Source: Schizochytrium sp. TIO01
Lineage: Eukaryota > Sar > Bigyra > Thraustochytrida > Thraustochytriidae
Reading direction: 5' to 3'
DNA: 64,000 nucleotides
Assembly (NCBI GenBank): GCA_004764695.1
Contig: SMSO01000035.1
Location: forward strand, 122,001-186,000
The notes below the pieces were generated by a model. It was not told the origin of the DNA, made no database searches, and saw only the letters and a program-made list of their open reading frames with translations. Both the position numbers and the translations under genes were made by a program. Positions 29,479 through 38,744 of this stretch are shown piece after piece (within the stretch, counting starts at the first letter, position 1; the number at the start of each line of letters is the position of its first letter).

Positions 29479-30212
29479 TTGAGCTCAATTTCTTTGAATG
29501 AAAGAATAAAGGCAAAATATCCACCATATCTCTTCACGTGCACGCCCACAGGCATGTCTGTCATCTTAAACTTGGCATTCGCTCTTCTTACAAGCTTCGT
29601 ACATGCGCGACAAGGCCCAGATATTCGAGATCGGGTCACGAGACTGGCACAGAAGGAAATGCAAAATCGCACTCTTTTCTCAAGGCTTCCGTACCTACAA
29701 GGAAAGAAAAGTCCCCCGAACAGGTACCTAATTCCATGCAAGTCGTGTCGCCTTAGCAACGTTTACTTTTGCCTTTCGCATGGAGATACAGTACGCCCAT
29801 AAAATCAGGCACCTGGTGCGCACCACAGTACTATTTTATTAGACCCAGGAATACGCTCATTTCACACCGCGCACAAGGCTGATTGATGGCCGAGTCATTG
29901 AGTGGAAGACAATCCCTTCTCTGTCGCCGCGCTGACAGAATCCTGAGAAAACTGGCCCAAAAGGGGAAAAGCGCCCCAAAACACGCGTACCTTGCGCACT
30001 ACTCAAGATCAAGCCAGAACAAGACTACCCTGCAAAGATTCACCACAACCTTGCACTTCGGCTCTGGGAATACTACCGTGTTATCAATTTGCCTTTAGAA
30101 ACTGAAAACCGCAATTCCCACGCGCCGGAGGCATCCGTTTGCCCTGCCTATCCAAGGGCACTCTTTAAACAACTGGCTTTGCGGCGGTGCGGGTTATTTT
30201 TTTAAGCCGCGG
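29479..30212 (+). pseudogene. Fanzor (eukaryotic TnpB/OrfB) relic A: RuvC-I present, RuvC-II/zinc-finger region deleted
   Basis: Fanzors are eukaryotic relatives of the RNA-guided nuclease TnpB. One frame is open from 29479 through NVYFCLSHGDTVRP, an in-frame TAA at 29803, then NQAPGAHHSTILLDPGIRSF to a TGA at 29884. The LDPGIRSF block is the Fanzor RuvC-I motif, with the catalytic Asp at 29842. Frameshifted sequence then gives DGRVIEW, RRADRILRKLAQKGK (29925-29969) and, in a third frame, KIHHNLALRLWEYYRVINLP plus LETE (about 30035-30105), the segment leading into RuvC-II. Immediately after this, sequence matching the extreme C-terminus of relic B begins (GCCGGAGGCATCC, about 30127), so roughly 230 bases holding the zinc finger are missing. 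The 3' flank also matches relic B (GGGTTATTTTTTTAA). It is clearly inactive. The N-terminal limit is uncertain. Confidence 0.75.
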
Positions 30213-31003
30213 TTGGACCTTACAAGTTTTGCAAATCTTAAAGGTTCGTTAGTTATCAAGCGCTTCAATATCCGTATCGTCCTCTTCCTCTTCCTCTCCA
30301 CACGTACACGTTCCGAGAAGAGCAAGCAGACGTGGAGCAGTTCGTATCTAGCGAAACCGAATCAACGCAGCACCATTGACGCATTGGCACTCCGAAGCAG
30401 TTTGGCTCATGACCGACAGCAGCATCAACCTTAGTCGGCCCTCTTGAGATGCCTGAAGAAGTCCATATATATAGCGTCGCGTGCATTCACCATTGACGCA
30501 AACTTACAACAAGTACATGTAATTAAAGCTCCAGGAGCTATAAAGAAATGAACCGATGGCTCCGGGACAAGAAGAATGATACAAGTGCAAATAGAGAGTA
30601 GTTATCAGGAATGGGCCGCAGGCTCCACGTGAAAGAATCTTGCATCGTGGCCTGGCCAACGCTACTGGTGACTACTCGAAAGAGAGCACTTGCGTTCACA
30701 CAATGTATGTAGGTGCATATACCGATGTATCATGCTATAGTGATTATACTCAAGCTGACCGTGGGGTTGATAAGTAGCGGCGAACCCAAGTTTGGGATCG
30801 AGGGGGTTGCTTCAAAGACTCGTACTAACGAAGCAAATCTTCAACGACCAACGAGAACTTACTGGAGGACGAGCTGCTTGCTGGAGGCCAAGGTGCTTGC
30901 CTGGTTTCTTCCTGGTTCACCTGACGGATCGTATACCCTAAGCTCTGGCTTTCTGGGCTAGCTTTGGGTTGTATAAGATTTCACCAAAGCTACGCAAGGT
31001 ACC
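30213..31003. other. Intergenic, 5' flank of the ABC transporter gene
   Basis: No gene recognised. It probably contains the transporter promoter. An in-frame TAA lies 30 bases before the transporter ATG. Confidence 0.6.
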
Positions 31004-35552: not shown

Positions 35553-37320
35553 ACTAATCTAGGTCGATGCAATAAGCTCAACCCTGAAGAAGCGTCAAAC
35601 CCACGCGAAGATCCCACTTCGAAGGGAGTTTGAGTCCAAGCTAAGTCTATAGACGGCAAAAGGATGCCGTCAGAGAAAGTGCTAGTGATGACGGCGCCAG
35701 GCCACGCTTCGGAGGGACGCTAGGCTAGCTTTTTTTGGTTTTCTGTTTTTGCCTGGGCGTTCCAAACGAATGGTGTTAACAGTCTGATCCCAAGGAACGA
35801 AGACCTCGGCGACACTGTAGAGCACGTTGGGTCTCGTCGTCAATCAAGCTTTACGAGGGGAGTTTCTTCTTCGCATTTCCTAGTTGTCTTTCTTCATTCA
35901 TTTATTCATCAAGCCCCGATTTCTTCTTTTTCTTTTTTTCCTTTTGATATTTATTTCTGTATCAAATAAACATAAATAAACATATCAACTTTAAACTTGA
36001 CTTTTTATAGAAAAAGAAACAAGAAAAGGTGAAAATGATGGCACATCATTTACGGAAAATGAACGACCCAACCACAAACAAACGAAAACTTTTAAACCAT
36101 CCAACGCGCATCTGTCGACGTGACAGCCGACGTCGTTTTCGATGCATCTCAGAGAGCTCCTCTCTGGCGCCTATTTCGCCATTTTAGTCTCTTTTGCAAG
36201 CAGCCGAAAGAGCTACAGAAAGAAACTCAGCAAAGAAACCTTGCTTTACATACACATTATATCAACTCTGGGGTGGTGAAAAGGGATTCTTCTTTTCTTT
36301 ATATTCTTAAAGTTGATCTTCAAGTTCTTCGTTCTAGAATACAATCCTGAGCAGAAACTGTAGATTGCTCTCTCCAGCGTCGCCAATAATTCCAAGGTGG
36401 GTGGATGCCTCAGTGGCCTGATCTCTGGAGATCTGTCTCTCCAGCACCCCTGGATTTTCTTCGCTGAGACTCCCGAGTTTATAAACTTAGAGGCACTAAC
36501 TATACTCGCTGATAGTAGGTAGATGCTAGCCTAAGGCACCTTAGCATATCGCTACGAGAGGGCGCTGTTTGGGGCAATTGAAACTACCCTCAACTACCAG
36601 TTACTTCTACCAGTTTAATCCTACCTTACTATTTAGGCAGGAAGTAGTCCTATGACAATCCCTCCTTTACTCTGTCTCAAAAGTCTAATTGAAAACTTGG
36701 TCTACTTCCGGATGCAAAAACCAAAAACAAAGGTCAAAAGCCAAGGAGCAAAGTCTGGCGCCAAGTCGAAGGTCTTGAACTTGCGCCAGACGTGCAGAGC
36801 TCGTGATTAAATAAACTCAGGCTGGCTTTGAAACCCCTTTTGCTGCAAAGATCATGATTGTTCACGGGGTTCTGAAGAATTGTTGCAAATGGAAGCACTT
36901 CGATTGACCGACCGTAGCTAGCTAGCTACTACTACTAGATTATGAACTCCAAGCCTGACGACAACGCCTACATTCCGAGCGATCGTGAGGACGAACGTTT
37001 AGTTTGGCTCCCTGAGAGTCGCTGGCTGCACATATATATCAGCAGCCCTCCGTGGCACCGGCGTTGATCGCTTGCTTCGGTTGAATGTTGCAACCAATAT
37101 TTGAAGCAAACAAATATTGTGGGAATGCACCTTTCGCAATATTGCCTTGAAGCTGTAGGCACTAGAGACTTGAGCGCTGGTTTGGGTTATTAGATTAAAG
37201 AGCGTATCATGCTTGCTTTTTGGAGGGCCCTGTGACGCTACGTGTTCCCATGCCACGTAGAGTTTAATCTCTTAAATTTGCAAAACTTGCTACGGTGACG
37301 TGGGGCTTAGGCCCGGTCAC
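35553..37320. other. Intergenic, no gene recognised
   Basis: Promoter side of the thioredoxin-fold gene, then A/T-rich and mixed sequence. Small frames on both strands near 36930-37260 have no recognised domain. Confidence 0.55.
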
Positions 37321-37706
37321 GGGTTAAAAAATAACCTGCAACAACACAATGACATTTCTAATGATGCCCTTGAATAGATGGACGCAAAAGGATGCCTCTG
37401 GCGGCGTGAGGGAACACCACGATCGGCTGCGTGTTTGCATTTTCGGGGGGCGTTTGAAAACCTTAGATATTCCGAGCTTGTCGCGAATGGTACCACATTT
37501 ATTGCATGTTTTTGAAGTGCAATCCTCTCGGCAATTCCATCAGAGGCAAAGCTCGACTTTGGGAATGAGTTCTTGTCGGAAAGTAGAGTAGCCCCAACAA
37601 CACATCATTCGACCTGTCTTGCTTTGGATCCGTCGTGTTAACTTGTTGAGGTTTGAAATTTAGGCAAAAAGATAACACGGTAGTACTCACAGAGCCAAAG
37701 TGCAAG
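37321..37706 (-). pseudogene. Fanzor (eukaryotic TnpB/OrfB) relic B: RuvC-II to C-terminus with zinc finger
   Basis: Minus-strand readings, with stops and shifts between them, follow the Fanzor order closely. NLALWLCEYYRVIFLPKFQTS (37706 downwards; the RuvC-II strand, with Gln where the catalytic Glu is expected) is followed by RRIQSKTGRMM, then WGYSTFRQELIPKVEL (37603-37558 region), EDCTSKTCNKCG (37492-37520; the first two zinc Cys), KLGISKVFK, then DRG (37417-37425; RuvC-III position) and, after a one-base shift, HAARGILLR (37382-37406). Compare the canonical TSKTC-x-x-CG and DRD-x-NAARNILL ends. A TGA lies in the region before EDCTSKTC. About 55 bases match relic A at 30045-30100, and the 3' end and flank match it as well. 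Nothing upstream of 37706 matches relic A, so the N-terminal half is absent. Confidence 0.75.
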
Positions 37707-38080
37707 GTTGCGGGATTCTAAGTAGCCCAGTAGGACGCGCAAGCCCGACCTTTTGATGTTGACCCCGCGGCCAATGTCTTTGTAGACGGTGGAGGACAGA
37801 TACGCTGGAGACCACCAACCTGACGTTTGAAATCTCCTCTTCGCCTGGCGAGCCTGGCATAGAGAATGCCACGTCCAGTGCTGCGTTGCTCGCGACCGCT
37901 CAAATTGCAGCCATAGATGCGCCCAAGATTCTCACCTGCGTATATGCGCTGGCTTCTGGTAAAACGCTTGAAGGACTCTTGCTGAGATGCCAAACATCTG
38001 GTTGAAGTACTTTGTTGGCTTGTATTGAAGTTTTGCTTCACTTGTAGTATTTGGCGATTCGTTGACCACGCCATTTTCTT
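37707..38080. other. Coding-like fragment of unknown origin beside Fanzor relic B
   Basis: Open frames exist on both strands. The plus strand reads ARPFDVDPAANVFVDGGGQ, then in another frame TLETTNLTFEISSSPGEPGI and onward to QTSG at 38005. The minus strand holds a 118-codon frame (37718-38074). Neither is recognised. It may be the far part of the mobile element or an unrelated decayed gene. Confidence 0.25.
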
Positions 38081-38744
38081 ACTTAGCAGAGACCTAAATA
38101 ATTCTAATTTACCATTTATATGGAATAAAAACTACTGGAGATACTATCGTTCTCATGATTACAGTTGTTACTCCTGCTGATGATCTTCATTAAAACCGTA
38201 TACAATCTTTTTGTGAGGACCAAATGGCGTTGCACAACTCCGCTGACATTTGCTTGTAGTAATCTTGGATTTTCGTCGCTAAAAATTATAAACGCAGTAA
38301 ATTATGCTGATTGCATTTCGCTGACGATTGTGGGATCGTCGGTAATTAAAGCGAGGGTGAGGGCGAAGGAAAAGATAAATTTAAAAAGTAGCTTGGAAGG
38401 AAGAGTAGGACTATGTTTTGGGGTTGGTGAGAGTGGCCTTAATAGGGACTTTATAAAGAGCGAAGGAGAGATACTGGTGTGGATGAAAATTACCTTGACA
38501 ACGTCTAAGCTCTGATTACCTTGACCTGAGAAACAACATAAAGCAAAAATGCATGAGGTTTCTTGGTTTATGTATATATATATAGTATACAAATCTCCAA
38601 AGCTACATTGAAAATGTTCTGCAATATGTTAAACAACGGTAATACTACAACTGTAGTTGGTGAACTGATGAGACAGCATCGATGACTCAGATGCAGGCAC
38701 ACTTGCTTGTAGATATTGTAAGAATAAATGCAACCAATATTCAA
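38081..38744. other. Intergenic, no gene recognised
   Basis: A/T-rich 3' flank of the minus-strand hotdog gene. A short (TA)n run lies near 38572-38585. Confidence 0.6.

Follow-up and report, generated by a model that had tools for sequence, protein, structure and literature searches.

A window of 64,000 nucleotides from Schizochytrium sp. TIO01, the whole stretch of DNA that was analysed, carries pieces of the C-terminus of a Fanzor nuclease on its minus strand at 37321-37706, and the question raised by this locus is what kind of element the pieces belonged to and how that element came to be there. The first-pass annotation had read the interval as a dead Fanzor copy. The interval holds only the Fanzor end of a longer element, the whole of which occupies 37254-38163. 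At a probability of about 0.9, the locus holds the decayed remains of an internally deleted, non-autonomous derivative of an IS607-type transposon that carries TnpA and Fanzor2.

All of the motifs named in the first-pass annotation were found on the minus strand, at or adjoining the place given, and are spread over three frames. RRIQSKTGRMM (37635-37603), WGYSTFRQELIPK (37596-37558), TSKTCNKCG (37518-37492) and KLGISKVFK (37479-37453) share one frame, HAARGILLR (37408-37382) lies in a second, and FLPKFQTS and HAADRG lie in the third. When an intact Fanzor from this genome was compared with the window by tblastn, linked pieces over 37712-37382 matched at E 1.5e-21, which places the match beyond chance and bears out the annotated Fanzor C-terminus with an OrfB/TNB zinc ribbon. 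By blastn, the relic matched 20 Fanzor copies at E 3e-32 to 7e-79. The single-frame ORF of the relic scored without significance against Pfam when used alone (E 0.12), because the reading frame of the relic is broken. An open frame, a complete D-E-D and a C4 finger are all missing from the window copy, in which RuvC-I has been lost by deletion, the DRD of RuvC-III reads DRG, as annotated, a frameshift has broken up the second Cys pair, and a stop and further frameshifts occur. With RuvC-I missing, DRD changed to DRG, and the stop and frameshifts, the copy is unable to code for an active nuclease and is identified from its sequence as a dead Fanzor relic. The RuvC-II Glu had also been thought to read Gln, but the residue that changed (LPKFETS to LPKFQTS, in the canonical TnpB region) is not the catalytic Glu of Fanzor, which is found six residues N-terminal to the zinc finger (PMC10711439); this alternative Glu is kept in the relic, which reads REDCTSKTC where the intact protein reads ESYTSKTC. 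The window contains another Fanzor relic, at 29583-30222 on the plus strand; it belongs to the same superfamily, has the DPG block (HHSTILLDPGIRSFHTAHKAD, E 4e-12) and lacks a different internal part.

A search of the genome for intact relatives had been advised in the first-pass annotation, and such relatives are present; the genome is 64 Mb, and the copy numbers given here are lower bounds from searches and one pattern census. A six-frame search returned at least 36 matches to the TNB/OrfB zinc-ribbon family, 15 of the 36 lying in open frames of at least 615 aa with nearly equal scores, and a search with PF00239 returned at least 29 matches, among them 12 young ones without stops that adjoin Fanzors. 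When the zinc-ribbon, fingerprint and PF00239 results were compared, at least nine copies were found to have both the TnpA and the Fanzor gene open. Thirteen young copies and one older copy were taken with their flanks. The young elements are 2.2 kb long and about 94-99 % alike, with flanks that differ, and at least 18 young copies are 94-100 % identical across the right end. Each contains two genes, which overlap and are read in different frames. The product of the first has 232 aa and includes a Resolvase domain (PF00239, E 5e-20), and its best solved relatives are the IS607-family TnpA proteins of ISC1926, ISC1904 and IS1535; its N-terminus (MGRPRNRQ...FGISASALRGWADGGRVRCARFPGGKRIYACDDVERIF) is HTH-like in a by-eye reading, and Pfam gave no HTH match. 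The second encodes a Fanzor of ~492 aa (PF07282, E 1.5e-13, with PF12323 and PF01385), for which the best solved relative is the mimivirus TnpB-like protein L79 (9b0l, E 3.7e-19). The intact Fanzors have DPG in RuvC-I (VIALDPG), with a Glu six residues ahead of the finger (ESYTSKTC), and DPG in RuvC-I together with the alternative Glu is the Fanzor fingerprint (PMC10711439). Amino-acid changes are fewer than silent changes in both genes (pN/pS 0.35 and 0.38). The nuclease is assigned to Fanzor2 from its carriage with TnpA in an IS607-type element and from a sequence closest to Fanzor2. A gene for a PfaA-type PUFA synthase, typical of DHA-producing thraustochytrids, is also present in this genome (G000:C4:608161-617209) and has a long open frame.

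The window element is 910 bp long on the minus strand, its left and right ends having been aligned with those of about 36 short copies, and an internal deletion of ~1.2 kb has fused within it the start of an IS607-type TnpA with the C-terminal quarter of Fanzor2. It begins at the left-end crossover dinucleotide TG (38162-38163; CTG followed by TAATCATGAGAACG). A frameshifted N-terminal fragment of TnpA, covering the HTH and serine recombinase, occupies 37728-38060 (tblastn E 4e-13 and 3e-10) and includes YKDIGRGVNIKRSGL at 37740-37784. The deletion junction at 37713-37727 leads into the Fanzor2 C-terminal fragment at 37382-37712, which corresponds to aa 370-485 of the 492-aa intact protein and contains the first half of the zinc ribbon (37492-37518) with the RED of the alternative Glu just upstream. 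The right end, 37254-37382, is by alignment and structure count the counterpart of a structured, guide-RNA-like segment of the intact copies, and the element closes with CTCTACG followed by the crossover dinucleotide TG (37254-37255). The minus strand of the window from 36950 to 38060 has matches of about 66-75 % identity at 40 or more further places (232 candidates at first look), and 38 short copies were aligned to an intact element for comparison.

In five intact copies, the last ~134 nt up to the right end are predicted to fold into several hairpins, with z scores of -4.4, -5.6, -4.4, -3.8 and -4.1, and four other parts of the element gave +1.5 (left end), -0.4, +1.3 and -2.05. A consensus of 12 pairs over 28 young and old copies was 88 % paired, against 26-46 % when slid. 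Double-sided changes were seen in seven of the 12 pairs and the covariation score was reached by none of 500 shuffles, although such counts can be inflated by relatedness and the alignment mixes in decayed copies. The structured segment is positioned downstream of the Fanzor stop and extends up to the right end, and Fanzor and TnpB guide RNAs are located 3' of the stop codon, up to the right end (PMC10711439). The structure and covariation make a good but not decisive case that the intact right end is a guide RNA (reRNA/omega-RNA), as predicted. The right end of the deleted form may have supplied guides, with Fanzor from full-length elements cutting the empty donor site, and this cutting would possibly have favoured retention of the element by repair. 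It is conceivable, if rather doubtful, that each deleted copy produced a guide RNA out of its right end plus flank, borrowed Fanzor from full-length elements, cut the vacated site and gained copies by repair, which would make the short family a non-autonomous guide-RNA parasite of a TnpA and Fanzor system in a eukaryotic nucleus.

An even chance is given to the alternative that the short family is a passive by-product, in which the right end was kept only for TnpA and the fold is without guide function in the short copies. The ends of IS607 bear short repeats that TnpA needs (PMC6188088), the individual short copies mostly fold weakly, as does the window copy (z -1.57), and the guide RNA is a prediction; but only the right end, at the guide-RNA location, has the strong fold and the covariation, whereas the left end, equally required by TnpA, shows no fold.

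Whichever role the right end had, the preferred reading of the locus as a deletion derivative draws on the junction. The deletion spans from about aa 133 of TnpA to about aa 370 of Fanzor, and the junction, which connects element position about 520, inside TnpA, to about 1718, in the RuvC-II region of Fanzor, is common to at least 35 of the 38 short copies. Since these copies lie at different loci, the deletion preceded the spread. Copy L078 is an exception to the shared junction, in L052, L057, L066 and L080 the edges depart from it by tens of bases, and a sub-group of short copies has a second deletion near 171-445. It is very unlikely that a full-length Fanzor element inserted here, lost its middle by local deletion and then decayed; the frameshifts and stops of the window copy would suit such a history, as would the second relic with its own, different losses, but the same junction at other loci speaks against it. 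The annotated dead copy is therefore dead, but it is neither isolated, as a TnpA fragment is fused upstream, nor a full copy that died in place, as the deletion came before the spread.

The short family has many copies, one internal deletion, preserved ends and no open transposase, and it is classed as a single deletion derivative that multiplied as a MITE-like non-autonomous family. A left-end pattern with at most three mismatches had 116 matches in the genome and none in a reversed control, a census that includes young copies and omits the window copy, which has more mismatches, so that 116 is a lower bound for all ends. The short copies are about 69 % identical to each other at the right end and the young copies about 94 %, and the short family is judged from this to be old. 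From the multiplication of the deletion, TnpA from full-length elements would have excised and inserted the deleted form in trans. A common TAA was observed in the TnpA of L034, L035, L036, L038, L040 and other young copies, in which Fanzor is open (pN/pS 0.38), and in L035, L036 and L038 TnpA is interrupted at one shared point by an insert of ~300 bp that contains CCTAA repeats (L035:3766-4061, minus). The TnpA-stop copies suggest Fanzor-only elements moved in trans, and they support trans-mobilisation because they occupy different sites and have retained an open Fanzor, with the caveat that gene conversion between copies bears on this parallel.

Young copies start with AG followed by TATGACAAAAACCGTT and finish with ATCTAAG followed by AG, and short copies start with TG followed by TACCTATGAAAACGTTAG and finish with CTCTAAG followed by TG. 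AG was found at 9 of 12 left ends and at all 12 right ends of young copies, the three other left ends reading CG, CG and GG. TG is the commonest dinucleotide at the ends of the short copies (16 of 29 located left ends and 14 of 36 located right ends), and the left dinucleotide of old copies is often blurred. Both ends carry AG in copy L086 and TG in L089. Neither terminal inverted repeats nor a target duplication were seen at the element ends of young and short copies, the empty-site evidence being one nested case. Empty sites were sought with the joined flanks of 12 young insertions. Copy L041 interrupts the left end of an older element, and comparison with the uninterrupted homologue L069, a single case at 78 % identity with small gaps at the site, indicates crossover at AG without duplication. 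Insertion would have proceeded by crossover between identical dinucleotides, and the full-length element, with a TnpA serine recombinase, matching dinucleotides and no inverted repeats, is assigned to the IS607 type. Helitron-type ends, considered for the CTRR-like CTAAG at the right end, were ruled out by TnpA and the matching dinucleotides. The least probable origin, with hardly any weight, is the capture of a Fanzor1 by a Helitron or some other transposon of eukaryotes. Fanzor1 elements are common in stramenopiles (PMC3627910), but an IS607 TnpA in the same element, the lack of inverted repeats, and an HTH_OrfB domain and best match to mimivirus L79 that fit Fanzor2 all oppose this origin. 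The first 4-8 bp past the left dinucleotide vary among L031-L043 (TATG, TACA, TCTA, TAAGAT, TAGGGT) though the elements are otherwise ~95 % identical, and plain mutation does not readily explain this. Of a young-type element, copy L088 (G000:C30:8395848-8396029) retains just the final 180 bp (91 % identity) and ends in the right-end AG, being either a truncated copy or a solo right end.

Among known systems, the IS607-type Fanzor2 elements of Acanthamoeba and giant viruses (ACa-1, ISvMimi_1; Bao and Jurka 2013, PMC3627910) likewise combine TnpA with Fanzor2 and lack inverted repeats and target duplication, and the mimivirus source of L79, the solved protein closest to the thraustochytrid Fanzor, accords with this likeness. 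The thraustochytrid element differs from them in being multicopy in a nuclear genome, in having both a recent burst and an old deleted family, and in crossing over at AG or TG. Bacterial IS607 and ISXfa1 (PMC6188088, PMC10711439) share the matching end dinucleotides, the absence of duplication and the guide-RNA-like right end, but bacterial IS607 uses GG as its crossover dinucleotide (PMC6188088) and the thraustochytrid protein bears the Fanzor fingerprint. MITE-like derivatives and a Fanzor1-only element of ascovirus (PMC10711439) are similarly without a transposase of their own and would move in trans. Most MITEs have inverted repeats, whereas the short family is without them and of serine-recombinase type; it also differs from both in having lost most of Fanzor and kept the guide-RNA-like end. 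Scans of viral and genome contig collections with the Fanzor protein, which reach close relatives only, gave no relative, and a literature search of limited reach returned no paper linking Fanzor with thraustochytrids and no description of non-autonomous IS607 families in eukaryotes.

In the cited literature, Fanzor2 elements with their own IS607 transposase are mainly those of giant viruses and Acanthamoeba. This genome presents a graded series, from young elements with both genes open, through young elements with TnpA broken and Fanzor kept, to about a hundred older ends, which include the deletion family that keeps only the ends and the guide-RNA-like segment. The series traces both the spread and the decay of these elements in a eukaryote, and it makes the role of Fanzor for its transposon testable in cultivable protists, the thraustochytrids.
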